Of a stretch of DNA of 64,000 nucleotides, positions 1,188 to 51,879 are shown piece by piece. Below the pieces are notes generated by a model. It was not told the DNA's origin. It saw only the letters and a list, made by a program, of their open reading frames with translations, and made no database searches. How positions within the stretch are numbered: position 1 is the stretch's first letter; the number at the start of each line of letters is the position of its first letter. This stretch comes from Streptomyces sp. GS7 (lineage in GTDB: Bacteria; Actinomycetota; Actinomycetes; Streptomycetales; Streptomycetaceae), in the NCBI RefSeq assembly GCF_009834125.1, contig NZ_CP047146.1:3341501-3405500 (forward strand), written 5' to 3'. The translations under genes were made by a program, and so were the position numbers.

Positions 1188-1622
1188 ATGACCACGTACC
1201 GCCCACGCATCGTGGACCTCAGCGAGACCCAGCCCAACCGCCGGCGCGGAGGTGATCTGCGCGCCATGCTGACACCCAGCGCGGTGGGCGCCACGAGCGG
1301 CTTCATGGGCATGGCTCTCGTGCAGCCCGGCGAGCGCATCGGCGAGCACTACCACCCGTACTCCGAGGAGTTCGTGTACGTCGTCCAGGGCTCGCTGGAG
1401 GTCGACCTCGACGGCGAGCCGCACCCGCTGCGCACGGACCAGGGGCTGCTGATCCCGCCGTACATGCGGCACCGCTTCCGCAACGTCGGGGACGTGGAGG
1501 CCCGGATGGTCTTCCACCTCGGCCCGCTGGCGCCGCGCCCCGAACTCGGGCACGTGGACACCGAGGGCACCGAAGAGGGATCGGCCGCGGCCCCACCGGA
1601 ACGGACGGAGCCGGTGTCATGA
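1188..1622 (+). CDS. Cupin protein of spore pigment cluster (WhiE-ORFII-like)
   Basis: This 144-residue single-domain cupin starts at an ATG placed 7 nt after GGAGGA (1175-1180); a longer in-frame extension upstream has no ribosome site. Motif 1 is visible as [15 protein letters not shown] (His54, His56, Glu61) and motif 2 as P-Y-M-R-H around residue 91-95, so a metal site is likely. Cupins of this kind sit beside the minimal PKS in spore pigment and related clusters and are thought to help cyclise or modify the polyketide. Its stop overlaps the KS-alpha start (ATGA), implying translational coupling. Confidence 0.85.
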
Positions 1623-2887
1623 TCCGCCGCGTGGCGGTCACCGGCATCGGCGTCGTCGCCCCGGGCGGCGTGGGGGTCCCCGCGTTCTGGGACCTGCTGT
1701 CCACCGGGCGTACGGCCACCCGCGGCATCACCCTCTTCGACCCCGCCGGGTTCCGCTCGCGGATCGCCGCCGAGTGCGACTTCGATCCCGCGCGGCACGG
1801 GCTGAGCGAGGAGCAGGTGAGCCGTTCGGACCGGTACATCCAGTTCGCGCTGGTCGCCGCGGAGGAAGCGATGCGCGAGGCCGGGCTGGACACCGCGAAG
1901 GAGGACCCCTGGCGGATCGGGGTCTCCCTGGGCACCGCGGTCGGCGGCACCACGCGCCTGGAGCACGACTATGTCGCGGTCAGCGAGTCCGGCCGCCGCT
2001 GGGACGTGGACCCGCGCCCCGCCGGGCCGTATCTGCACCGGGCGTTCTCGCCCAGTTCGCTGGCCTCGGCGGTGGCGGAGCAGATCGGCGCGCACGGCCC
2101 GGTGCAGACCGTCTCGACGGGCTGCACCTCCGGCCTCGACGCGATCGGGTACGCCTTCCACTCCATCGAGGAGGGCCGGGTCGACGTCTGCGTCGCCGGT
2201 GCGTCGGACTCGCCGATCTCCCCGATCACCGTGGCCTGCTTCGACGCCATCAAGGCGACCTCCGCCAACAACGACGACCCCGCCCACGCCTCCCGGCCGT
2301 TCGACGCCCGGCGCGACGGATTCGTCATGGGGGAGGGCGGCGCCGTCCTCGTCCTGGAGGAGCTGGAGCACGCCCGCGCCCGCGGCGCGACCGTCCACTG
2401 CGAGATACGGGGGTACGCCACCTTCGGCAACGCCTACCACATGACCGGCCTGACCGAGGAAGGTCTGGAGATGGCCGAGGCGATCAACCGCTCGCTGGCC
2501 CATGCGCGGCTCGACCACACCCAGGTCGACTACGTCAACGCGCACGGCTCGGGCACCCAGCAGAACGACCGCCACGAGACCGCCGCGGTCAAGAAGTCGC
2601 TGGGCGACCACGCCTACAAGGTGCCGATGAGCTCGATCAAGTCGATGGTGGGGCATTCGCTGGGCGCGATCGGGGCGATCGAGGTCGTCGCCTGCGTCCT
2701 GGCCCTGACCCACCAGGTGGTGCCGCCGACGGCCAACTACGAGACCCCGGACCCCGAGTGCGACCTCGACTACGTACCGAAGACGGCGCGCGAACTGCCG
2801 CTGCGGTCGGTGCTGTCGGTGGGCAGCGGGTTCGGCGGGTTCCAGTCAGCGGTGGTCCTGACCCGACCGGGTGGGAGGGCGAGATGA
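1619..2887 (+). CDS. Type II PKS ketosynthase alpha (spore pigment)
   Basis: At 422 residues this is a normal-length KS-alpha subunit. The catalytic Cys169 lies in [11 protein letters not shown], with His309 ([11 protein letters not shown]) and His346 ([10 protein letters not shown]) completing the triad. It performs decarboxylative Claisen condensation of malonyl units on the ACP, in a heterodimer with KS-beta encoded directly downstream. Start and stop codons overlap both neighbours by ATGA, so cupin, KS-alpha and KS-beta should be made stoichiometrically. Context (SchA, cupin, aromatase, TcmI-like cyclase) indicates the grey spore pigment pathway and not an antibiotic cluster. Confidence 0.95.
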
Positions 2888-7898: not shown

Positions 7899-8726
7899 TC
7901 ACTCCGACGGCCCCCGGGCCGGCGCCGCGCCGGACCGGGCCACCGACGCCTCGACGCCGTCCAGGACGACCGCGAGCCCGACCTCGAAGGTCCGCTTCGC
8001 CTCGCGCTCCAGATACGGCGTGCCGTCCGCCGGCGGTGCCGCGCCCTCGGTCTCCAGGCGGACCAGCAGCGGGAAGCGCTCCGCGAAGTCGGGGGCCACC
8101 TCGGTCAGCATGCCGGAGCGGGCCTGCCACCAGTCCTCGTCCGGCACGCCCGTGGCGGTCGCGGCCAGCCGGGACTCGGCGACGGTCTGTGCGGCGCCGC
8201 GGACGAAGTGGAACAGCACGCCGACGACGCGGCGCAGTACGGCGGAGTCCAGCCCGGTGGCGTACAGCACCCGCAGCAGGGACTCCAGCGCGCCGTATTC
8301 GTTGGGGCCGAGGACGGGCCGGGCCTGGGAGACCTGGAGCACCCACGGGTGGCGCAGGTAGAACTCCCAGGTGTCCGCCGCCCAGGAAGCCGCCGCGGCC
8401 CGCCAGCCCGCCGAAAGGTCGTAGCCGGTGGGGAGTTCGGCCAGCGCCCGGTCGTACATCAGGTCCACCAGCTCGTTCTTGCCGGGGACGTAGGTGTACA
8501 GCGCCATGGCCGTACGGCCCAGCCGCTCGCCGACCGTGCGCATGGACAGGGCCGCCATTCCGTCCGCGTCGGCCACCGCGATGCCCGCGTCGACGATCGC
8601 GTCGACGCTCAGCGCCGGTTTGGGCCCGCGGGGCGTACGCGTCCTCGCGGTCCGCTCGGGGGCGTCGGCGCGCCACAGCAGCGACAGCGAACGGCGGGCG
8701 TCGCCCTGGCCCGCGAATACCACCAC
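7899..8726 (-). CDS. TetR-family regulator with TetR_C_1-type domain
   Basis: The helix-turn-helix region reads ALSMRTVGERLGRTAMALYTYVPGKNELVDLMYD (given in parts: AALSMRTVGERLG, then TAMALYTYVPGKNELVD), the classic TetR pattern; the larger C-terminal domain resembles TetR repressors of resistance/efflux genes. The start chosen is GTG 8726, six bases after AAGGAG; a TTG at 8732 abuts that site directly and is unlikely. It is divergent from the siderophore-interacting protein gene, and two matching palindromes lie between them, so it probably represses both itself and that gene. Confidence 0.88.
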   Translation of the reverse strand: MVVFAGQGDARRSLSLLWRADAPERTARTRTPRGPKPALSVDAIVDAGIAVADADGMAALSMRTVGERLGRTAMALYTYVPGKNELVDLMYDRALAELPTGYDLSAGWRAAAASWAADTWEFYLRHPWVLQVSQARPVLGPNEYGALESLLRVLYATGLDSAVLRRVVGVLFHFVRGAAQTVAESRLAATATGVPDEDWWQARSGMLTEVAPDFAERFPLLVRLETEGAAPPADGTPYLEREAKRTFEVGLAVVLDGVEASVARSGAAPARGPSE

Positions 8727-8734
8727 TTGCAACT

Positions 8735-8783
8735 CCTTAGGGCGTAAAGTAATGTCGCCAGTCGAACTCTTTACGCCGTAAAG
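8735..8783. promoter_or_regulatory. Paired TetR operators in divergent promoter
   Basis: CTTTACG-C-CGTAAAG (8769-8783) is a perfect 15-bp palindrome. A second site at 8735-8749 shares the right half CGTAAAG exactly and matches five of seven bases in the left half. Both lie between the divergent TetR and siderophore-interacting protein starts, in AT-richer DNA, the usual position for autoregulated TetR sites. Confidence 0.7.
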
Positions 8784-8813
8784 ATATCATCCGCGCGTTC
8801 CCGAGGAGCTCCG

Positions 8814-9698
8814 ATGACGGCCGTGCCCGTCGCACTCATCCACGTCAGCGACGTCCGCCGGATCACCCCGCGTATGGTCCGGATCACCTTCTCCGGGGAG
8901 GGCCTCGACGCCTTCCCCACCTGGCCCGACCAGCAGCTCAAACTGCTCTTCCCCAGACCGGGCCGGCGCGTCCCCCGCCTCCCCGAGGCGACCGCGGACG
9001 GCGATGCCATGAGCTGGTACCAGGCGTTCCTCGCCATCCCGGAGGAGGAGCGGCCCTGGATGCGCAGCTACACGGTGCGTTCCTACGGCCCCGGGCGCCG
9101 GCGGTTCTCCGTCGACTTCGTGCTGCACGGGGCGCCCGGCGCGGCGCCCGCCCAGGCCGGTCCGGCGACCCGCTGGGCGGCGACCGCCTCCGTGGGCGAC
9201 ACCCTCGCCCGGTACGGCCCGGCGGCGGAGTATGCCCGGCCGCTGCCGCTCGACGCCCCCGGGCCGATCCTGCTGGCCGGGGACGAGACGGCGCTGCCCG
9301 CCATCGGCTCGCTCGCCGCGGCGCTGCCCGCGGGCGCCCGCGCGGTGGCCTACGTCGAGGTCGCCGACGCGGCGGAGGAGCAGCAACTGCCCACCCGCGC
9401 CGACCTCGTCGTCCACTGGGTGCACCGCGACCGCGCGCCGGCCGGGCGGACCGGCGTGCTGCTCGACGCGGTCCGCGCGGCCGTTCTCCCCGAAGACCCG
9501 GCCTTCGTCTGGCTGGCAGGTGAGGCGGGCGCGGTGCGCGCACTGCGGCGCCACCTGACCGGGGAGCGCGGCGTCGCCAAGGACCGGATCGACTTCACCG
9601 GCTACTGGCGGCGCAGCCTCACCCAGGACGACGCCCCCACGGAGGACGACCTCGCCGAGGCCCGGGAGAAGGCGGCGGCCTGGGGGCAGGGCGGCTGA
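8814..9698 (+). CDS. Siderophore-interacting FAD-binding protein
   Basis: The 294-residue protein has the N-terminal FAD-binding barrel with the signature RSYTVRSY (84-91) and a C-terminal NAD(P)H-binding-like domain containing GDETALPA and the closing YWRRS of the SIP family (ViuB/YqjH type). These cytoplasmic flavoproteins reduce ferric siderophores to release iron. There is no siderophore biosynthesis gene beside it; regulation would be by the divergent TetR protein instead of an obvious iron box. Confidence 0.9.
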   Translation: MTAVPVALIHVSDVRRITPRMVRITFSGEGLDAFPTWPDQQLKLLFPRPGRRVPRLPEATADGDAMSWYQAFLAIPEEERPWMRSYTVRSYGPGRRRFSVDFVLHGAPGAAPAQAGPATRWAATASVGDTLARYGPAAEYARPLPLDAPGPILLAGDETALPAIGSLAAALPAGARAVAYVEVADAAEEQQLPTRADLVVHWVHRDRAPAGRTGVLLDAVRAAVLPEDPAFVWLAGEAGAVRALRRHLTGERGVAKDRIDFTGYWRRSLTQDDAPTEDDLAEAREKAAAWGQGG

Positions 9699-9711
9699 GC
9701 CCGGCGCTCGT

Positions 9712-9745
9712 CCGGTGGGTCGCCGTTCCGACCCCGCCCCACCGG
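9712..9745. terminator. Hairpin between convergent genes
   Basis: CCGGTGGG (9712-9719) pairs with CCCACCGG (9738-9745) across an 18-nt loop, between the convergent siderophore-interacting protein and alpha/beta hydrolase genes. No T-run follows, as is usual in Streptomyces. Confidence 0.5.
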
Positions 9746-9754
9746 GGGCAGCCC

Positions 9755-10531
9755 CTAGCCGAGGCGCCGGCCCTCGTCCGCCGCCGCCCGGATCAGCACG
9801 TCGGTCAGCTCGCCGGGCCGGGACAGCATCGGGTAGTGCCCGGTGTCCAGGTCGAAGAAGCCGACCCGGGGTTCGGTGAGGATCGCGTAGCGGGGGTCGC
9901 CGGTGGCCACCAGGGCTTCCAGGGTGGCGATGCTCGTGCCGTGGGCGGTGCAGAACACGCCGGTGGCCGGCATCTCGGCCGCCGCGCCGGTGAGTCGCAG
10001 CGGCCGGGTCAGGGTGGCCAGCGGCTGCGGCGCGGCAAGCCGCTCCAGCCGCTCCCGGGCAGCGGGCGTCACGCCGGCGAGGCTGCCCCACAGCTGCTCG
10101 TCGGCGAGCGGGGGCGGCGGGAGCCGCCATCCCGCGCCGAGCTCCTCGGCCCGCCGCAGCAGCCGGTCCCGTACCACCGGGTCGGGCATCACGTCGAACC
10201 CCGTGTCGCCGTCGGCCGGCATGCCGGTGTCCAGGTAGACGACCCGGCCGACCCGGTCCGGGCGGCGGTCGGCGGCGCCCAGGGCGGGGAGCAGGCCGTA
10301 GCAGTGCCCCACGACCACCGCGTCCCTCGGCTGTTCATGGTCCAGCACCTGCACGACGTCCTCGACGTGCGTGTCCAGGTCCGTCTCCCGGCCGGCCAGA
10401 TGGCGCCGGTCGCCCATCCCCGTGAGCGTCACCGGGTAGGCGTCGTGCCCCCGCTCCCGGAGCCGCGCGGCGACCTCGCGCCAGATCCAGCCGCCGGTGT
10501 AGCCCCCCGATACCAGAACGAACGAGGTCAT
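9755..10531 (-). CDS. Alpha/beta hydrolase with Cys at nucleophile position
   Basis: The 258-residue protein is a single alpha/beta hydrolase domain similar to plant-esterase/salicylate-esterase-like bacterial hydrolases (start FVLVSGGYTGGWIW, end DTGHYPMLSRP giving the catalytic His). The nucleophile elbow reads VVGHCYG: Cys77 instead of the usual Ser. Ser-to-Cys hydrolases exist (dienelactone hydrolase type), so activity is possible but specificity is unknown. ATG start is preceded by AAGGAGCAAGG. Confidence 0.82.
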   Translation of the reverse strand: MTSFVLVSGGYTGGWIWREVAARLRERGHDAYPVTLTGMGDRRHLAGRETDLDTHVEDVVQVLDHEQPRDAVVVGHCYGLLPALGAADRRPDRVGRVVYLDTGMPADGDTGFDVMPDPVVRDRLLRRAEELGAGWRLPPPPLADEQLWGSLAGVTPAARERLERLAAPQPLATLTRPLRLTGAAAEMPATGVFCTAHGTSIATLEALVATGDPRYAILTEPRVGFFDLDTGHYPMLSRPGELTDVLIRAAADEGRRLG

Positions 10532-10807
10532 CCTTGCTCCTTGTCGTCGTGACGGTGCCCGGCTCGCCGTGGCGGACGCGGCGCGCCGGGCGGTGACCGG
10601 CCGCGTCTGCCGGGACCGTAGAAGCTCCCGCTACGGGAGATTCAAGGCCGCGGGCCGGCGCGGGGACGACCGGAGCGGCGACCGGAGTTCGTCCGGCGGC
10701 TTGTGCACCACCCGTTCAAGCCGCCGGGCCCGTCGACTACAGTTGAGGAATTCCGCTATTCAACAGATGAACGCGATGGCCGGTCGGCCTGAACGCGGAG
10801 GGCATGC
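10532..10807. other. Intergenic region with small hairpin
   Basis: This 276-nt gap separates the hydrolase start from a small + strand gene. It carries a perfect short hairpin CTCCCG-CTA-CGGGAG (10625-10639) and, near 10738-10770, an AT-richer stretch (GTTGAGGAATTCCGC) that may hold the promoter of the small gene. No other gene is supported here. Confidence 0.5.
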
Positions 10808-11008
10808 GTGGGCGGTTTCGCCGAGTCGGTTCGGGAACGGGTGCGTGCGGCACGGGCCGCCGTCGCGGCGGCGCGGACGGCGGACGACGCCTATGCCCTG
10901 GCCGTCGCGGAGGACGAGCTGGACGACGCGCTGCGGATCGCGCGCAGCGTCGGCGTCGACCCCGACGGCGGGAACGCGTCCGGTGCGCAGGGCGGGGCGG
11001 CCGAGTGA
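10808..11008 (+). CDS. Small helical hypothetical protein
   Basis: A 66-residue protein starting at GTG with GGAGGG seven bases upstream. It is almost wholly helical and charged (ESVRERVRAARAAVAAA, then DDAYALAVAEDELDDAL), resembling small Streptomyces proteins of unknown function that may form a helical hairpin. No cysteine, membrane segment or signal peptide. Function unknown. Confidence 0.65.
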   Translation: MGGFAESVRERVRAARAAVAAARTADDAYALAVAEDELDDALRIARSVGVDPDGGNASGAQGGAAE

Positions 11009-11070
11009 GCGGCGCGGCGGCGCGGGCGGCTCGCACCGCGTGCGGCGCCACCGGATCCGGGTGACCGCCG

Positions 11071-11484
11071 ATGGCCGGCGCACCGCGACGTAAAGGACCG
11101 CCGCCGTGGCGCGCGGTCCGCTCCCGCACCTGCATACCCACGGCCTCCCGTGCGGGCACCGCACGGCCCTGCCGGGGGCGCCACCACCTCGGCCCCGGCG
11201 CGCTGCGCCCGCCGCGCGGACACCGGCGCGCCTGCCCGGAGATCGCCGCCCGCCATCTGACGTCCCCGCGCTGCGGCGTCCGGCGGGCCCGGGTCACCGC
11301 CGTCCGCCCCGGCACCCGGCTGGCGCGGCTGCCCGGCACCGTCCTGGTGACCCACCGGACGGCGACGTACGAGGCGGCCCGGCGCAGCCTGTGGATACGG
11401 GTGCTGTTCGCCGTCGCGGTCACCAACCTGGTGCTGGCCTTCCTGGCGATGGTGGTCTACCTGGGACGGCACGCGGGCACCTGA
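11071..11484 (+). CDS. Hypothetical C-terminally anchored membrane protein
   Basis: The 137-residue frame has consistent third-position GC. The first half is Arg/Pro/Cys-rich (Cys21, Cys34, Cys55, Cys68 in the reading), the second half ends with one clear transmembrane helix (WIRVLFAVAVTNLVLAFLA) near the C-terminus, giving a tail-anchored topology. The exact start is uncertain because the N-terminal composition is atypical. No family recognised; it lies between the small helical protein and a convergent CDP-alcohol phosphatidyltransferase. Confidence 0.55.
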   Translation: MAGAPRRKGPPPWRAVRSRTCIPTASRAGTARPCRGRHHLGPGALRPPRGHRRACPEIAARHLTSPRCGVRRARVTAVRPGTRLARLPGTVLVTHRTATYEAARRSLWIRVLFAVAVTNLVLAFLAMVVYLGRHAGT

Positions 11485-11503
11485 CCCCCGTCGCCCCGGC
11501 CGC

Positions 11504-12223
11504 TCACCCCGGCTCCCGGGCCCGCCACAGCCACACCGCATCCCGTCCGAACGACCACACCAGCAGGGCCAGTGCCCCCGCCACCGCGCCGAACTCCGCC
11601 TCCCGCGGCACGATCCCGGCCGCCGCCACCACCAGCACGATCCCCTGGCACGCCGCCACCGTCTTGCGTGCCGTGCTGTGCGGCAGCGCGGCGCGCAGCC
11701 AGGGCAGCGCCCAGGACGCGACGACGAAGGCGTAGCGCATCGCGCCGATGGCCGTCACCCAAGGGCCCAGCGCCTTCGCGACGTACACGCTCAGCACCAG
11801 GATCAGGAACGCGTCGACCTCCATGTCGAAGCGGGCCCCCAGCGGCGTCGCCGTCCCGGTACGCCGGGCCACCCGGCCGTCCACCGCGTCCAGGACCAGC
11901 GCGACGGTGGCCAGTCCGATCAGCGCCGTCACCGCGGGCCGCCGGCCGAAGGAGTCGGCGACCAGCGCGGTCACCCCGCCGACCAGCGTGGCGCGGGCCA
12001 GGGTGACGCGGTTGGCCGGACCGAACGAGTCCGGCCAGGACCGGCACAGCGCGCGGGTGAGCGTGGCCACGGTGGCCACCGCGAAGACGGACCCCGCCAG
12101 CCACCCCGCGGTCCCCAGCCCGACCGCCCGGCACAGCGCCTCCAGCAGCACCAGCTGCGCGACCGCGCCCGCGGCGGCGTCCGGGGCGAACGGCCTTGTC
12201 CCGTACTGCCGTTGTACGGCCAT
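11504..12223 (-). CDS. CDP-alcohol phosphatidyltransferase
   Basis: The 239-residue membrane protein contains the full CDP-alcohol phosphotransferase signature from Asp112 to Asp137 (DAVDGRVAR, then Gly, then D-x3-D), with five to six hydrophobic segments around it. The family transfers a phosphoalcohol from CDP-alcohol to a second alcohol, typically in phospholipid synthesis. It is divergent from a dehydrogenase that heads an orphan pterin-like cluster, and could build a lipid-linked or phospho-diester product there; this is inference from position. Confidence 0.88.
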   Translation of the reverse strand: MAVQRQYGTRPFAPDAAAGAVAQLVLLEALCRAVGLGTAGWLAGSVFAVATVATLTRALCRSWPDSFGPANRVTLARATLVGGVTALVADSFGRRPAVTALIGLATVALVLDAVDGRVARRTGTATPLGARFDMEVDAFLILVLSVYVAKALGPWVTAIGAMRYAFVVASWALPWLRAALPHSTARKTVAACQGIVLVVAAAGIVPREAEFGAVAGALALLVWSFGRDAVWLWRAREPG

Positions 12224-12346
12224 CGTGCCTCCGGGTGCGTCTGGCGGACTCGATGGGCGCCGCGTATCGTGACGGCGTCACCAAGATCCGCACCGTGCGT
12301 TCTCCAGCATCGACGACGCATCGCAACACCGTCCAGGAGGATTACG

Positions 12347-44157: not shown

Positions 44158-44574
44158 TCAGCAGCGGAAGACGCAGTGCAGAAGCGGGAGTCGGTCCGGT
44201 CTCGATGCCGCGGCGGTGGTGAGGCCGGAGGGCTGAGGGGCCGCGGCGGCGGGGGCGCTCGCCGCATCGGCGCCGTGACCGGGCCGCGTACGGCGGGTCG
44301 GCGCCGCGTCCGCCGAGGACGACGCGGGGCGCCGCGGTCCGCCGTGCCCGGTCTCGCGCTGGGGGTGCTTCTCCTCTTCGGAACCGGCTGTGGCGGATGG
44401 TGCGTTACCCGCGGACTTGAGCGCGGAGCCGGCGGGAAGTGCGGGCCTGGCCGTGCACGGGGAGGTCGCCGCGCCCAACAGGAAGGCCAGGACGACAGCG
44501 AGGGCGGTCAGCGGCAAGCGGAGCCGGGCCGGCAGGCGGGATGTCCCCGCCGCTCCGGTGTCCGTCCGCCGCAT
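44158..44574 (-). CDS. Hypothetical secreted or anchored small protein
   Basis: The 138-residue protein has an N-terminal membrane/signal segment (LPLTALAVVLAFLLGAA), a long low-complexity Ala/Pro/Ser/Arg-rich middle and a hydrophobic Cys-containing end, LPLLHCVFRC. No domain is recognised. The region upstream (44575-44650) is a plausible promoter. Confidence 0.55.
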   Translation of the reverse strand: MRRTDTGAAGTSRLPARLRLPLTALAVVLAFLLGAATSPCTARPALPAGSALKSAGNAPSATAGSEEEKHPQRETGHGGPRRPASSSADAAPTRRTRPGHGADAASAPAAAAPQPSGLTTAAASRPDRLPLLHCVFRC

Positions 44575-44649: not shown

Positions 44650-44871
44650 TCACCGTGCCTCGGCCGGGCGGTCGCCCGCTCCCTCACAGTGCGGCATCCA
44701 GGTTTCCAGTGGGATAACAGGAAATGACACCATGTTGCGGAGATTCCCTGATTTATGCGTGCCGTCGCCGTCTCCCGCCCCGCTGAGCACCTGGGAGACC
44801 GCCGGGACGGCCAGGATCCGCCGCTGGGCCGGGATCCGCCCCGCGGCCGGGTCGAGGGTCCGGGTGCTCAT
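44650..44871 (-). CDS. Short coupled ORF at end of peptide operon
   Basis: The 73-residue frame starts with an ATG overlapping the upstream stop (ATGA), which supports translation. The first 30 codons have normal Streptomyces usage, but the second half (KSGNLRNMVSFPVIPLETW) uses AT-rich codons unlike its neighbours and overlaps a probable promoter. It may be a small accessory peptide or the truncated 5' end of a lost gene. No family recognised. Confidence 0.4.
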   Translation of the reverse strand: MSTRTLDPAAGRIPAQRRILAVPAVSQVLSGAGDGDGTHKSGNLRNMVSFPVIPLETWMPHCEGAGDRPAEAR

Positions 44872-45377
44872 GCGGCGGGCGGCTCCAGGGCTGCGATGTC
44901 CGCCAGGGACAGCCCCATGTGCCGGTGGAGGAAGCGGACGATCGTCCAGTGCGGCAGCGCGTCCTGGTCGAACGGCCCGAACTCCCGGCAGTACAAGGGA
45001 ATCCAGCGCAGCGCCTCGTCCAGCACCTGCTCACGGCCGGGGGCTTCGTGGTAGTCCTCGTAGGCGATGCTCCGGTGCTCGATGAGGAACCGGCCCGGGA
45101 GCCGCTCCTCGCACAGCGCCCGGTATTCGCGGGTCTGGAGAATGAGGTAGTGCCAGATTTCGTCGATGTCCTGCTCGACGGGGAGGAAGAGCCCGCTGAG
45201 CCGGTCGCGGTGCCGGGAGACGAGAAAGAGGTAGCGCAGGCATTCCAGCACCTGGCGCTCCACGAAATCCCGTGGTGCGTCGGTCTTTTCGGCGAAGTGA
45301 TCCACGACTTCGCGGTACATCTCCGCACCGAGCAGGTCCGTCAGCTGGTCGGTGGATGTCGGCGGGGTGCCGGTCAT
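44868..45377 (-). CDS. GRDP-like (glycine-rich-domain-protein-like) protein
   Basis: The 169-residue protein has the recognisable DEIWHYLILQTREY plus RALCEERLPGRFLIEH region (72-101), matching the D-x-x-WH-x-h-L-x-x-T-x-x-Y pattern of GRDP-like proteins. The function of that family is unknown; conserved His and Cys suggest a metal or redox site. ATG overlaps the PaaK-like stop (ATGA), so the two are made together. It follows a Cys-repeat peptide gene in the same operon. Confidence 0.8.
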   Translation of the reverse strand: MTGTPPTSTDQLTDLLGAEMYREVVDHFAEKTDAPRDFVERQVLECLRYLFLVSRHRDRLSGLFLPVEQDIDEIWHYLILQTREYRALCEERLPGRFLIEHRSIAYEDYHEAPGREQVLDEALRWIPLYCREFGPFDQDALPHWTIVRFLHRHMGLSLADIAALEPPAA

Positions 45378-46615
45378 GCTTCTCCTTGCGCGAGCCAGGC
45401 GTATTTGCCCGACCTCCCGATGGGGATGTGCGTACGGTGGTCGAGTCGGCAGAGCCGCCCGGTGAGTTCGGTGAGACCGCGCTCCAGCGCCACGGTGTCG
45501 ACCGGCCCGAGGGGCCTGCCGTTGAAGGTCGTGTACGCCAGCCGGGCCTCGGTGGCGCCGGTCGGCCGCAGCTGGTGGACGAAGACCTGCGGTGTCACCT
45601 CGCTGATGCGGCGGTCCAGGTCGCCCTGGGCGACCTGGCCGTGCCGGGTGTCCAGCAACTCCGTTTGCCGGCCGCAGAACTGGGAGATCCGTTCCGGATC
45701 GGGGGAGTCGTCCGCCGTCCGTACGAGGTCGCCCGTGCGGTACCGGATCAGCGGCATATGGGGATTGCGCACGCTGGAGACGATGAGCTGGTGGATCGTG
45801 CTGTCCGGGGCGATCGGATGGAGTTCGACGCTCATCTTGTCGAGGTGCGGCCGGTAATTCCCCCGGCGGTCGCTGGAGAAGAGATAGCCGAGTTCGGTGC
45901 TGCCGAAGAGGTCGATGATCGGGCAGGCGAAGTGCTGGTGCAGAAAGCGCCGCACGTTCACCGGAGTGTATTCGTAGGCGTGAATGATGCTGGCCGGCGG
46001 TGCGAAGTCGTCCCACAGCCCCCATTCGCCGACCTTCCGGACCAGATGCGCCAGGTGGTAGCCGGAGCAGTCGAGGTGGTACAGGCCCTGCGGATGCGCT
46101 TCCCGGGCGGCCTCGATCTCGCCGAGCATCCGCACCACGTCGTCGCGCTCCCACCGCGCCGGATCCAGCCGCAGATTGAGGTAGCAGGTCCGGTCGTCGA
46201 GCCGGCGGTCGGCCGGCGGCGGCACCGGTTCCGGCGGTACGCCGCGCTTGACGGCGTTGAGCCGCGCGACGTGCTCCGTCGCCAGCACCGTCGTCAGCGA
46301 TACCCGCCGGCAGCCGGAGGCCCAGGTGTCGGCGATGTCCGGGTGCTCGCTCCACAGCTGGTAGTAGGAGTGCAGCAGGAAGTACGGGGGCCGGATGAGC
46401 TGCATCCGGGCGTGGTGGGTGCCGGTGGAGAGCACGAACTCGGCCTCGCCGGACTCCAGCGCGGCGGCCAGGCGGGGCGTCATCCAGTTGTCGGGGAAGC
46501 CGCGTGCGATCTCCGGCTTGTCGAGGATCGGGAAGTGGCCCTTGGCCAGTGACTCGCGATAGATCGGAATGTCGCGGATCTGCTCGATGACCTCGGCGGT
46601 CGGCTGACCTTCCAT
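45374..46615 (-). CDS. PaaK-like adenylate-forming enzyme
   Basis: The 413-residue protein resembles phenylacetate-CoA-ligase-type AMP-forming enzymes: the phosphate-loop region is STGTHHAR (63-70), the adenine motif LFGSTELGYL (236-245) and the hinge-side RYRTGDLV with GRQTELLD after it. Such enzymes activate carboxylates as acyl-AMP and may form thioesters. Placed 127 nt after the Cys-repeat peptide gene and coupled to the GRDP-like gene, it may activate a substrate for peptide modification. AGAGGGA precedes the ATG. Confidence 0.85.
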   Translation of the reverse strand: MEGQPTAEVIEQIRDIPIYRESLAKGHFPILDKPEIARGFPDNWMTPRLAAALESGEAEFVLSTGTHHARMQLIRPPYFLLHSYYQLWSEHPDIADTWASGCRRVSLTTVLATEHVARLNAVKRGVPPEPVPPPADRRLDDRTCYLNLRLDPARWERDDVVRMLGEIEAAREAHPQGLYHLDCSGYHLAHLVRKVGEWGLWDDFAPPASIIHAYEYTPVNVRRFLHQHFACPIIDLFGSTELGYLFSSDRRGNYRPHLDKMSVELHPIAPDSTIHQLIVSSVRNPHMPLIRYRTGDLVRTADDSPDPERISQFCGRQTELLDTRHGQVAQGDLDRRISEVTPQVFVHQLRPTGATEARLAYTTFNGRPLGPVDTVALERGLTELTGRLCRLDHRTHIPIGRSGKYAWLAQGEA

Positions 46616-46742
46616 GGAATCCCTCTGCGCTCGAACGATGGGTGCCGCGTCCCGAATCCGGGCGCGGGGCCCGGCGTCGGGCCCGGCGGCGGGGGGAGTC
46701 GCCGCCGGACCGCCACGGGCCGCCGGGCGGCCGGGGCCGGCT

Positions 46743-46898
46743 TCAGGAAATGCAGCCGGCCTTGGGCGCCGCGCTGATGCAACCGGACTTGGGGGCGGCG
46801 CTGATACAGCCGTCCTTCGCAGCCTGCCGGGCGGAGTTGGCCGCTATCCAGCCCTGCCAGATGTCGTCCTGGGCCATCTTCTTGATGAGCTGCTCCAC
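46743..46898 (-). CDS. Candidate RiPP precursor with three GCIS repeats
   Basis: The start is GTG 46898, five bases after GGAGG (46908-46904). The 51-residue peptide has a helical leader-like part (MEQLIKKMAQDDIWQGWIAA) and a C-terminal half with three repeats of Gly-Cys-Ile-Ser: Cys31, Cys40 and Cys49, each nine residues apart, joined by AAPK spacers. Repeated Cys/Ser cores after an amphipathic leader are typical of ribosomally made, modified peptides. Longer in-frame starts lack a ribosome site. No known RiPP class is recognised. Confidence 0.78.
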   Translation of the reverse strand: MEQLIKKMAQDDIWQGWIAANSARQAAKDGCISAAPKSGCISAAPKAGCIS

Positions 46899-47298
46899 GG
46901 GAACCTCCGAAGGGTGTGGGGAAGGGGAGGCGGCGACCGGTGCCACGCCGACGACCTGCGCCGACGCCGCCCTCACCAAAAGTAAAAGGCATGCCAAGTC
47001 AATGTCAACGGCGGGCAATGTCGCGCGACGCGGAGGGGGTCGGGGTCCGCCAACTTTGGCGGGATTCCTTCGAGATGATCGACTGCGGAATTTTCTGACG
47101 GGCAGTCAACTGGACGGGCGGGCCGCGCCGCCGTATTGCGCGCCACGGCGATCGATGACCGGTTCCGTTCGGGTTCGTTCGGGTTTATTCGAGTTCGTTC
47201 GGGTGACCTGCCCAGCGGGTCCGAAGCCTCCCGGCGGCGCACGGGGAACGATCACGACCGTCCACCGACCGAACCGTCCACCCCACCGGGAGTCCGCC
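46899..47298. promoter_or_regulatory. Divergent promoter region of peptide and HypX-like genes
   Basis: This 400-nt gap separates the peptide gene (-) from the HypX-like gene (+). It is AT-richer between 46975 and 47095 (AAAAGTAAAAGGCATGCC). It contains the 10-bp tandem repeats at 47166-47205. No further gene is supported; the open frames here have no coding bias. Confidence 0.55.
47166..47205. repeat. Four tandem 10-bp repeats upstream of HypX-like gene
   Basis: CGTTCGGGTT at 47166-47175 and 47176-47185, TATTCGAGTT at 47186-47195 and CGTTCGGGTG at 47196-47205. The regular helical-turn spacing resembles binding sites of OmpR/SARP-type winged-helix regulators, one of which is encoded at 49163-49714. 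Confidence 0.7.
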
Positions 47299-49038
47299 GT
47301 GCGCATTCTGCTCATCGCGGGCGCGTTCAACAGCCTCACGCAGCGCGCCTACGCCGAACTCACCGACCGCGGACACCGCGTCGCCGTCGAGCTGGTCACC
47401 CGCGGGACCCCGCTCGCCGAGGTGGTACCGCGGCACGCGCCCGAGCTGGTCGTGGCCCCGATGCTCAAGACGGCCATCCCCCGGGAGGTGTGGTCCGCCC
47501 ACCCCTGCCTGATCGTGCACCCCGGCCCGCTCGGCGACCGCGGCCCCTCCTCGGTGGACTGGGCGGTGCACCTCGGCGCGGAACAGTGGGGCGTCACCGT
47601 CCTCCAGGCCAACGACGAGATGGATGCCGGCGATGTCTGGGCGACGGCCAACTGCCCCGTCCCCGGCGTGGGCAAGAGCGACCTCTACCGCAACGAGATC
47701 GCGGACGCGGCGATGGCGGCCCTGCTGACCGCCGTCGACCGCTTCGCGTCCGGCGGCCACCGCCCGCAGCCGCAGCACGCCCTGGCTGCCGAGCGCGTCG
47801 TCGGCCGCCCCCGGCCGCCGCTGCGCCAGGACACCCGCCGCATCGACTGGTCCACCGACCCGACCGCCACCGTGGTCCGCACCCTGCGCGCCGCCGACTC
47901 CCAGCCCGGCGTACGGGACGAACTGCTCGGTGAGACCTGGTTCCTGCACGGCGGCCACCCCGAGGACACCCTGACCGGGCGGCCCGGCGACCTGCTCGCC
48001 ACCCGTCACGGCGCCGTCTGCCGGGCGACCGCCGACGGCGCCGTCTGGATCCCCGAACTCCGCCCGCCGCGCACCCCGGGGGAGCCGGCCACCTTCAAAC
48101 TGCCCGCCACCATGGCGCTGGGCGACCGCCTCCCGCCGCTGCCCGAGGTGCCCGCCCCTCTGGAGCCCGCCCAAGGCACCCGTACCTGGACCGACATCCG
48201 CTACCACGAGGACGGACCGGCCGGATTCCTGCGCTTCTCCTTCCCCGGTGGCGCGATGAGCACCGACCACTGCCGGCGGCTGCTCGCCGCCTACGAGTAC
48301 GCCCGCACCCGGCCGACCTCGCTCCTCGTCCTCGGCGGCCGGCGGGACTTCTTCTCCAACGGCATCCACCTCAACGTCATCGAGGCCGCCGCCGACCCCG
48401 CCGCGGAGTCCTGGGCCAACATCAACGCCATCGACGACCTGGTGCACGCCGTCCTGACCACCACCGACCGGCTGGTGGTCGCCGCGCTCGGCGGCAACGC
48501 GGCGGCCGGCGGGGCGATGCTGGCGCTCGCCGCCGACGAGGTGTGGTGCCGCTCCGCGGTCGTCCTCAACCCGCACTACCGGCTGATGGGGCTCTACGGC
48601 TCGGAGTACTGGACGTACACCCTGCCCGGCCGGGTCGGGGTCGAGACCGCGGACCGCCTCATGGCGCGGGCCCTGCCGGTCAGCGCCGCGACCGGGCAGC
48701 GGCTCGGGCTGGTCGACCGGATCATCGACTGCGCCCCGGAGGACTTCGCCGACCGCACCGCGGGACTCGCCCGCCGGCTGGCCGCGGCGCCCGCCGGCCA
48801 GGCCCGGATCGCCGCCAAGAAGGCCGACCGGGAGCGGGACGAGGTGCGGCGCCCGCTCGCCGCCTATCGGGACGACGAACTGGCCCGCATGCGCCGGACC
48901 TTCTTCGACCCCGAGGAGCCCTACCACGCCCTGCGGCGTGCCTTCGTCCACAAGGAGGCCCCGGCCGGCACCCCGGCCCACCTGAACGCGGTGGCCGCCG
49001 GGACATTGGCCGAAACGGTTCGGCAGGGCACGAGGTGA
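47299..49038 (+). CDS. HypX-like formyltransferase/crotonase fusion
   Basis: The 579-residue protein starts at GTG after GGGAG. Its N-terminal half is a formyl-tetrahydrofolate-using hydrolase/transferase domain (MRILLIAGAFNSLTQ; VHPGPLGDRGPSSVDWA; DAGDVWA). Its C-terminal half is an enoyl-CoA-hydratase-like domain (ALGGNAAAGGAMLALAADEV). This is the architecture of HypX, which makes formyl-CoA and releases CO for NiFe hydrogenase assembly in air. No hydrogenase genes lie in the window, so a role with the neighbouring peptide operon is possible. Confidence 0.88.
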   Translation: MRILLIAGAFNSLTQRAYAELTDRGHRVAVELVTRGTPLAEVVPRHAPELVVAPMLKTAIPREVWSAHPCLIVHPGPLGDRGPSSVDWAVHLGAEQWGVTVLQANDEMDAGDVWATANCPVPGVGKSDLYRNEIADAAMAALLTAVDRFASGGHRPQPQHALAAERVVGRPRPPLRQDTRRIDWSTDPTATVVRTLRAADSQPGVRDELLGETWFLHGGHPEDTLTGRPGDLLATRHGAVCRATADGAVWIPELRPPRTPGEPATFKLPATMALGDRLPPLPEVPAPLEPAQGTRTWTDIRYHEDGPAGFLRFSFPGGAMSTDHCRRLLAAYEYARTRPTSLLVLGGRRDFFSNGIHLNVIEAAADPAAESWANINAIDDLVHAVLTTTDRLVVAALGGNAAAGGAMLALAADEVWCRSAVVLNPHYRLMGLYGSEYWTYTLPGRVGVETADRLMARALPVSAATGQRLGLVDRIIDCAPEDFADRTAGLARRLAAAPAGQARIAAKKADRERDEVRRPLAAYRDDELARMRRTFFDPEEPYHALRRAFVHKEAPAGTPAHLNAVAAGTLAETVRQGTR

Positions 49039-50448: not shown

Positions 50449-51879
50449 ATGGACGCACACCTGGCCGGCCGGGCGCCTCGCACCCACGCCCGCCCCGACA
50501 CCCTCCGCCCCGTCAGGGGGAAGTGGCTGCCCCTCGTGGCCGCCTGCCTCAGCACCTTTCTGCTGCTGGTCTACACGACGATCGTGACCGTGGCGCTGCC
50601 CCGGATGGCCGGCGATCTGCGGGCGGGCTTCGGCGCCCTGCAATGGATCGTCGACGTCTACACGCTCGCCCTCGCCGGGCTGCTCCTCGGCATGGGATCC
50701 CTGGGGGACGCGCTCGGCCGCAAGCGCCTCCACGTTCTCGGGCTCGCCGTCTTCACCGCCGCCACCCTCGGCTGCGCGCTGGCCGGGAACGTTCAACTCC
50801 TCATCGCCGCACGGGCGGCGCAGGGCATCGCGGGCGCGGCGATGTTCGCCACCCTCGTCCCGCTGATCGGCCTGGCCTATGAAGGACGGGACCGGGCCCG
50901 CGCGTTCGCCGTCTGGGGCGCGGTCGCCGGGGCGGCGGCGGGCATCGGCAACGTCGCCGGCGGCATCCTCACCCAACTCCTGTCCTGGCAGTGGATCTTC
51001 TACGGTGCGCTGCCGCTCTGCGCCGCCGCCCTCTGGCTGGCCACCAGGGTGCCGGCCGACCGCACCGGTACGCCGGCCCCGGTCGACTGGCCGGGAATCG
51101 CCACCTTCACCCTCGCCGCGACCGGGATCACCTTCGGCTTCGTGCGCGGCGGCGAGGCCGGGTGGGGCGACGCCGCGACACTGTTCGGGTTCGGGCTCGG
51201 TGCGGCGCTGCTGATCGCGTTCGCCGCCGTCGAGCGGGCGTCGGCGCATCCGATGATTCCCCTCGCGCTGTTCCGCAAGCCCGCGTTCGACGGGCTGCTG
51301 CTCGCGTCCGGCGCCTACTACCTCGGCGCGTTCGCCTTCCTGCCGGTGCTCTCGCTCTGGCTCCAGAACGGCGCCGGGCTCAGCTCCTTCGCCACCTCGC
51401 TCGTCATCACCGTGCAGCCGCTCGCCTTCTTCGCCACCTCCGCACTGGCCGGTGGCGCGCTGCACCGGATGCCCGCCCGGTGGAGCATCGGGGGCGGCAC
51501 CCTGCTCGTCGGCCTCGGTGATCTGGCGCTGCTGCCGGTGGCCCAACCGGGCTCCTCCTGGCCGGTGTTGCTGCCGGGGCTCGTCGTCACCGGCGTCGGC
51601 GCGGGGCTGGTGTCGCCCGTGCTGCCGGCGATCGCGATGGCCTCCGCCCCGCCGGCGCACACCGGTGTCGCCGCCGCGGCGGCCAACAGCGCCCGGCAGC
51701 TCGGACTGGCGCTGGGCGTCGCGCTGTTGGGCACCGTCTTCCACCGCTCGGTGCCGGGGACCGGGGCGGGCGCCTCGGCGGCGGCGTACGCGGACGGGCT
51801 GGGTGCGGTGTTCCTCGTGGCGGGCGCGATCGGGGCGGCCGGGGGGCTGGTGGCCTGTGTGGTGTGCGGGACGGAGTGA
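50449..51879 (+). CDS. MFS transporter, DHA2 (14-TMS) family
   Basis: The 476-residue protein has the DHA2 drug:H+ antiporter motifs: motif A as GSLGDALGRKRL, motif C-like GIGNVAGGILTQLL and the opening LPLVAACLSTFLLLVYTTIVTVALP (LLLVYTTIVTVALP shown). About fourteen hydrophobic segments are visible. It would export a small molecule by proton antiport. GGTGAGG precedes the ATG. Divergence from the winged-helix regulator suggests that it could export a product of the nearby peptide locus. Confidence 0.9.
   Translation: MDAHLAGRAPRTHARPDTLRPVRGKWLPLVAACLSTFLLLVYTTIVTVALPRMAGDLRAGFGALQWIVDVYTLALAGLLLGMGSLGDALGRKRLHVLGLAVFTAATLGCALAGNVQLLIAARAAQGIAGAAMFATLVPLIGLAYEGRDRARAFAVWGAVAGAAAGIGNVAGGILTQLLSWQWIFYGALPLCAAALWLATRVPADRTGTPAPVDWPGIATFTLAATGITFGFVRGGEAGWGDAATLFGFGLGAALLIAFAAVERASAHPMIPLALFRKPAFDGLLLASGAYYLGAFAFLPVLSLWLQNGAGLSSFATSLVITVQPLAFFATSALAGGALHRMPARWSIGGGTLLVGLGDLALLPVAQPGSSWPVLLPGLVVTGVGAGLVSPVLPAIAMASAPPAHTGVAAAAANSARQLGLALGVALLGTVFHRSVPGTGAGASAAAYADGLGAVFLVAGAIGAAGGLVACVVCGTE

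Follow-up and report, generated by a model that had tools for sequence, protein, structure and literature searches.

What does an enzyme of an acyl-activating family do beside a short gene for a peptide with repeated cysteines? The question is raised by a compact operon in Streptomyces sp. GS7, which lies in a 64,000-nucleotide stretch of contig NZ_CP047146.1 (hereafter the window, in whose positions all coordinates are given). The operon encodes, all on the minus strand, a 51-residue peptide with a GTG start (A; 46898-46743), a 413-residue PaaK-like adenylate-forming enzyme (B; 46615-45374), a 169-residue helical GRDP-like protein (C; 45377-44868) and a short open reading frame (ORF) of 73 residues (44871-44650). 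A preliminary description of the locus read it as a ribosomally synthesized and post-translationally modified peptide (RiPP)-like operon, and its account of the peptide is accurate: A has 51 residues, a GGAGG ribosome-binding site (46908-46904, minus strand) and cysteines at positions 31, 40 and 49. Here, we show that A, B and C recur as a unit beyond chance. We propose that they form a compact, horizontally transferred RiPP-like cluster in which B, together with C, loads an acyl group onto each repeat unit of A, and a major facilitator superfamily (MFS) transporter exports the product, a reading to which we give an even chance of being right.

We searched 392 Streptomyces genomes for B at a cut-off of E <= 1e-20 and retrieved the 48 loci other than that of the window; a separate search of genome contigs, in strains that overlap with those 48 loci, kept the best 80 of 129 B relatives. 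B is present in 49 of the 392 genomes (GS7 included) and is near-full-length in 48; in the remaining genome, G327, it is reduced to residues 299-410. Peptide A is found at 48 of the 49 loci, the sole miss being this shortened one (L091), and C likewise at 48, the sole miss (L049) being a contig end. The peptide frame adjoins B in 47 of the 48 loci outside the window, and GGAGG lies at most 25 nt away in 47 of 48. Among the 80 genome-contig loci, A is present in all and C in 79, the exception (L179) having B at a contig end. B thus always stands beside the peptide gene where the contig allows it, one decayed copy excepted, and the genes for the candidate maturation enzymes are co-inherited with that of the precursor, as in RiPP clusters. 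That copy, L091, has lost the peptide, and what still matches there is the C-terminal part of B, that of C and a portion of an MFS gene. The ATGA overlaps that join B to C and C to the short ORF in the window, to which the preliminary description had drawn attention, are real there and not general, since B and C overlap in this way in 6 of 47 loci having both genes.

The cluster also occurs outside Streptomyces. Kutzneria viridogrisea (L165) carries it with a peptide of two units, and Paraburkholderia polaris and P. domus (L181 and L189) carry it with peptides of four units and B proteins of 65 and 63% identity. In both Paraburkholderia loci the cluster occupies positions 8690-12280 and is followed by the same genes, for a Cys/Met-metabolism enzyme, an amidotransferase/phosphoribosyltransferase and a Mur-ligase-family protein. 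The operon there has a lower G+C content (0.596 and 0.589) than its flanks (0.62-0.63), as horizontal transfer would give. A family-level search of 150 genomes returned eight matches, six in Streptomyces (GS7 included) and, in other genera, one strong and one weak; B had no match in 72,556 plasmid records, and a plasmid location was rejected.

Peptide A has the two parts expected of a RiPP precursor, a conserved leader and a separately constrained core. We compared 97 distinct peptides from 128 loci, locating units by the pattern G[CYR][IVA][SC], which other deviants would escape. Of 296 units, 292 read GC[IV]S (276 GCIS and 16 GCVS), and GRIS, GRAS, GYIS and GCIC occur once each; one further deviant, a GCIN unit in P0362, falls outside the pattern. 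A lysine stands two positions before the glycine in 290 of the 296 units, and leader residues L4, W14, W17, N21 and S22 do not vary. The number of intact units does: six peptides have two, 83 have three (as in the window) and eight have four. The preliminary description had predicted just this, co-occurrence with variable repeat number and a constant Cys-Ile-Ser. Its exact nine-residue spacing is common (155 of 199 intervals) rather than required, as the other intervals range within 7-14, and we rejected it as a functional requirement. In 48 aligned peptides, selected regardless of motif, the ratio of nonsynonymous to synonymous differences (pN/pS) is 0.063 for Cys-Ile-Ser, 0.24 for KxGCIS, 0.41 for the linkers, 0.52 for the leader and 0.688 for the spacer; values of 0.15 (Cys-Ile-Ser) and 0.69 (spacer) come from 24 peptides of 51 residues compared without alignment, some of them with other spacing. 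The core is therefore under strong selection at the amino-acid level. Among the 120 listed of 188 homologues, peptides are named hypothetical, uncharacterized or nothing at all, except that P0363 additionally bears a linalool-dehydratase domain label; the window peptide matches that model with E 0.066, which we take as chance.

The assignment of B as a PaaK-like adenylate-forming enzyme is borne out by its predicted structure, which has the PaaK-like fold of the ANL superfamily, and by its adenylation residues: D296 and K404 are invariant in 68 sequences, and we take them to be the Asp and the C-terminal Lys of the named adenylation motifs. In predicted fold and motifs B resembles the PaaK phenylacetate-CoA ligases, but it falls far below the cut-off of their model (TIGR02155; 19.2 bits against 646.3), and its P-loop reads STGTxHARM. 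It likewise stays below the cut-off for the DVU_1553 family of AMP-dependent CoA ligases (NF045666; 34.1 bits against 300). Unlike NatL2, ClxA and AjiA1, PaaK-family ligases that join small aromatic acids and to which it is about 15% identical, B accompanies a ribosomal peptide. Neither B nor C matches a known RiPP-maturation family in Pfam or NCBIfam.

Protein C is more distantly tied to known families. Its description as GRDP-like captures a remote similarity at most: like bacterial proteins found by profile, C has a D-x-x-W-H-x-x-[IL] ... T-x-x-Y-x-x-x-C ... H segment, and a comparison of C with four bacterial proteins bearing the D..WH motif gave an hhalign probability of 94% (P 1.2e-7), in a single comparison with proteins picked by the same profile. 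The label does not extend to membership in PF07173, against which C and its relatives reach E 0.097 at best (2 of 63 members) and miss the Pfam gathering score; C differs from that family also in having its own conserved C-terminal region and in its tie to B and the peptide. Two of the four D..WH proteins were scanned and had no Pfam match. Of 371 C homologues found, 120 were listed, and 118 of these carry a precomputed PF27765 label; some bear the source name 'glycine-rich domain-containing protein'. Across 396 genomes of the phylum, a search for C beyond its family gave six weak matches in addition to that of GS7 itself. The predicted model (mean predicted local distance difference test score, pLDDT, 78.9) is helical except for isolated bridges, and the invariant polar residues H76, H101, H143, C89, D72 and E73 are compatible with an enzyme without proving one. 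Separately, a bacterial protein encoded at 1207-2082 (plus strand) of L103 combines the D..WH segment of C with a Gly/Cys-rich tail; tails of this sort may be substrates fused to GRDP-like proteins.

The preliminary description had also proposed that the two proteins act as a pair, and here relatives are informative. In two strains, represented by L087 (whose contig is shared with L190) and L088, B and C form a single open frame ending at the same stop, which argues that they work together. Among the 79 genome-contig loci with C, L190 is the one fused case, the genes being adjacent otherwise.

A third protein accompanies the pair in most Streptomyces loci, where an MFS gene follows C. Matches to this MFS family occur at 34 of 49 loci, and at 60 of 80 at a looser cut-off, with partial and displaced copies counted; in L067, L133, L134 and L177 the gene lies on the opposite side, past carbonic anhydrase and SulP genes. 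Both Paraburkholderia loci have a different MFS gene 3' of C (PF07690), which we take to be of the DHA2 type. In the window the gene is lost. The alignment of the window with L050 continues on either side of a segment of about 1.24 kb that the window lacks and for which it has 28 nt, and the first 33 residues of the short ORF share 70% identity with the N-terminus of the L050 MFS protein. A deletion of this size explains the short ORF, which is no independent gene but 33 MFS codons followed by sequence from past the deletion. We therefore reject it (P0004) as a fourth component or second precursor; the preliminary description had counted it in the operon. The window strain is thus an incomplete example of the cluster, and L050, whose B is 94% identical, is a better one. 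An intact MFS gene of another type lies at 50449-51879 of the window (plus strand), about 3.8 kb from the start of B and on the opposite strand; the type is also seen, partly or whole, in L050, L052, L113, L114 and L124. This gene might substitute for the lost exporter.

How might these components work together? A constant leader and unit, a free copy number, an acyl-activating enzyme, a fusible partner and a pump are best explained by leader-guided acyl loading. We propose that A is a precursor with a leader of approximately residues 1-22, including the two invariant tryptophans, followed by two to four K-x-G-C-[IV]-S core units. B would use ATP to convert a carboxylic acid to an acyl-adenylate in the manner of the PaaK family; since no carboxylate is constant in the internal units, the acid that it activates is most likely a small molecule. 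Guided by the leader, B would then pass the acyl group to each unit, where the likeliest acceptor is the Cys thiol, in the place usually taken by coenzyme A (CoA), with Ser as the alternative. C, in the same complex, would either present the leader or catalyze a follow-up step that joins Cys and Ser; since both residues are constant, the acyl group may bridge or cyclize them with its help. The product, whole or cleaved near the constant Lys and possibly bioactive, would leave through the MFS pump where this is kept. We more tentatively suggest that the cluster defines a new class of ribosomal peptide, in which repeated K-x-G-C-[IV]-S units receive a carboxylic acid from a PaaK-fold ligase that works alongside a GRDP-like partner or is fused to it, although we consider this stronger claim to have clearly less than an even chance.

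Several observations weigh against acyl loading as we propose it. We know of no modified form, mass or activity of the peptide, and B may still use CoA. No acid-making enzyme was seen travelling with the cluster. No relative of C in the PDB was found by structure search. The MFS gene is absent from the window and from other loci, so export by that pump is not essential, and in Kutzneria (L165) A-B-C is followed by a gene for a GDSL-lipase/FG-GAP protein with no pump there. Among the largest recurrent neighbor groups that we read or scanned with Pfam (rare neighbors lay outside this scope, and group 6 has no Pfam match) there is no peptidase; leader removal by a housekeeping peptidase is possible. 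Finally, part of the co-occurrence is built in: a peptide profile matched 51 of the 392 genomes, 49 strongly (E <= 2.4e-20) and two weakly (G003 and G202, E 4e-4 and 5e-4), and its 48 rows come from genomes that were searched, so that those matches arise by construction. The strong matches comprise the 48 known loci plus G105, whose contig ends 30 nt past the peptide. Because the profile was built from searched peptides, its informative part is the absence of strong matches elsewhere: in the 392 genomes there is no strong peptide match without B where the contig allowed B to show.

The most probable alternative keeps the acyl chemistry and changes its product. The peptide could be a reusable, multi-arm ribosomal carrier, on which B loads an acid as a Cys thioester and from which C transfers or releases it, so that a small molecule is exported in place of the peptide. 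The acyl-activating family of B, the two different kinds of MFS pump that accompany the cluster, the lack of a peptidase among identified recurrent neighbors and the variation in repeat number from two to four around a fixed unit all fit such a template. A pure thiol arm, however, needs no Ser, and Ser roughly equals Cys in conservation (a single change of Ser to Cys among 296 units, besides the GCIN of P0362); further linked biosynthetic enzymes were also not found. We regard a carrier role as unlikely. Less likely again is that B acylates Ser to activate it, that C aids elimination, and that Cys adds to the resulting dehydroalanine to give a lanthionine-like thioether without LanB, LanC or LanM. 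This proposal would explain why Cys and Ser are near-invariant at positions i and i+2 with almost exclusively Ile or Val between them, and it uses the joint action of B and C. Yet closure between i and i+2 would give a small ring, no known elimination domain is recognized in C, and the four deviant units alter one partner each (Cys to Arg twice, Cys to Tyr and Ser to Cys), the pair never being lost together.

We give a similarly low probability to an explanation without acyl transfer, in which the Cys motifs bind metal or serve in redox chemistry and neighboring genes for carbonic anhydrase and a SulP transporter belong to a shared stress or bicarbonate/sulfate response. One or both of these neighbors stand near 51 of the 80 loci in four arrangements, and the operon is preceded by its own promoter-like element. 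Against this, neither is seen in 29 of the 80 loci, the genus commonly has carbonic anhydrase-SulP pairs where the operon is lacking, and the conserved acyl-activating enzyme and the exporters are left unexplained. Least probable of all, and in our view very improbable, is that B adenylates the peptide's own carboxylate, for example that of the C-terminal Ser, for ligation or cyclization: ANL enzymes do activate carboxylates and the C-terminus is AGCIS, TGCIS or SGCIS in 88 of the 97 distinct peptides, but the internal units are equally conserved with no constant carboxylate, and some peptides end otherwise (GCISR in three, GRIS and GRAS in one each).

Acyl loading of A by B would set the cluster apart from known systems. 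Like multi-core RiPP systems, it combines a short peptide, a conserved leader, variable linkers and a repeated core with co-inherited enzymes and, mostly, an exporter; unlike them, it links the peptide to a PaaK-type adenylate-forming enzyme and a GRDP-like protein, which presumptively modify it. Microcin C and bottromycin clusters likewise contain a short ribosomal peptide, an adenylating or ATP-using enzyme and an MFS exporter, but their enzymes are E1-like adenylase and YcaO proteins rather than ANL enzymes, and their peptides have no Cys repeat. Non-ribosomal peptide and fatty-acid chemistry rely centrally on ANL enzymes; we know of none shown to act on a ribosomal peptide, and none turned up in our literature searches. 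If acyl loading on repeated units is correct, it would be an unreported route to peptide natural products and bring the chemistry of acyl-adenylates to peptides encoded by genes; the cluster would then represent a new RiPP class or a ribosomal carrier on which small molecules are assembled. Since the cluster is small, occurs in 49 of 392 Streptomyces genomes and varies naturally in repeat number, its chemistry is directly testable with three short genes, and the natural B-C fusion is a ready single-enzyme construct. That Paraburkholderia holds the cluster alongside a different exporter suggests a product of use in its own right. As far as we have searched, the cluster is undescribed: full-text searches of a literature collection that excludes most subscription journals and preprints turned up no description of it, and the terms looked up in the decRiPPter paper (PMC7794033) are absent there.

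The initial reading of the locus thus stands in part; it had overlooked the MFS exporter, the carbonic anhydrase and SulP neighbors, and a promoter-like element. This element, TTGAC-N5-CTTGG-N6-YTTTAC, lies 5' of the peptide gene (46982-47008, minus strand) and emerged from alignment of upstream regions and from genome matches. It has five matches in 61 genomes, all 5' of the peptide gene, and a reversed control has none; two of the seven operon-bearing genomes in that set (G017 and G035) lack an exact match. The exact element is present in 25 of 48 and 38 of 80 loci, and in neither Kutzneria nor Paraburkholderia. The stretch between A and B (46616-46742, minus strand) has the potential to form a GC-rich hairpin. 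Hairpins 3' of A beat shuffled sequences in four of five loci (z -2.28, -4.53, -4.17 and -3.21), while that of the window is not beyond chance (z -0.68).

Beyond the short ORF, the window encodes a beta-carbonic anhydrase (PF00484; 43453-44055) and a SulP-family anion transporter with a STAS domain (PF00916 and PF13466; 41981-43393, with a putative start codon), both on the minus strand. Carbonic anhydrase genes lie near 34 of the 49 loci and SulP genes near 33; these counts, and those of genome-contig loci with either gene, are lower bounds because some contigs are short. The 51 genome-contig loci with either gene have them downstream on the same strand (29), upstream on the opposite strand (15), upstream on the same strand (6) or downstream on the opposite strand (1); both Paraburkholderia loci and Kutzneria are among the 29 with neither in the available sequence. 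Such repeated neighborhood in varied arrangements suggests a link in function or regulation. If acyl loading holds, these proteins may supply bicarbonate, or shield the producer should the product target CO2 handling. In a tree of carbonic anhydrases, operon-linked genes fall into several groups with unlinked ones interspersed. We thus rejected the enzyme as operon-specific and treat it as a recurrent neighbor, not a defining part.

Other neighbors are rarer. A HypX-like fusion of formyltransferase and enoyl-CoA hydratase domains (47305-49038, plus strand), divergent from the peptide gene, recurs in 12 of 49 loci, on the same side each time, and is treated as local synteny rather than as a component. 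Six further groups (an amino-acid permease, a regulator, an F420-dependent reductase, an ABC transporter, its binding protein and one group with no Pfam match) are each found in at most 11 of 49 loci. Between the short ORF and the carbonic anhydrase gene, a 138-residue ORF (44158-44574, minus strand) has a signal- or transmembrane-like N-terminus and ends in LHCVFRC. Tails of this type (39 records having 26 different 3' ends, with copies that duplicate the window and L046 counted) hardly vary ahead of many operon-linked carbonic anhydrase genes in one group, some members of which lack them, and were not seen before the unlinked carbonic anhydrase genes that we checked. The ORF could encode a second peptide or act as a leader ORF for the carbonic anhydrase and SulP genes.

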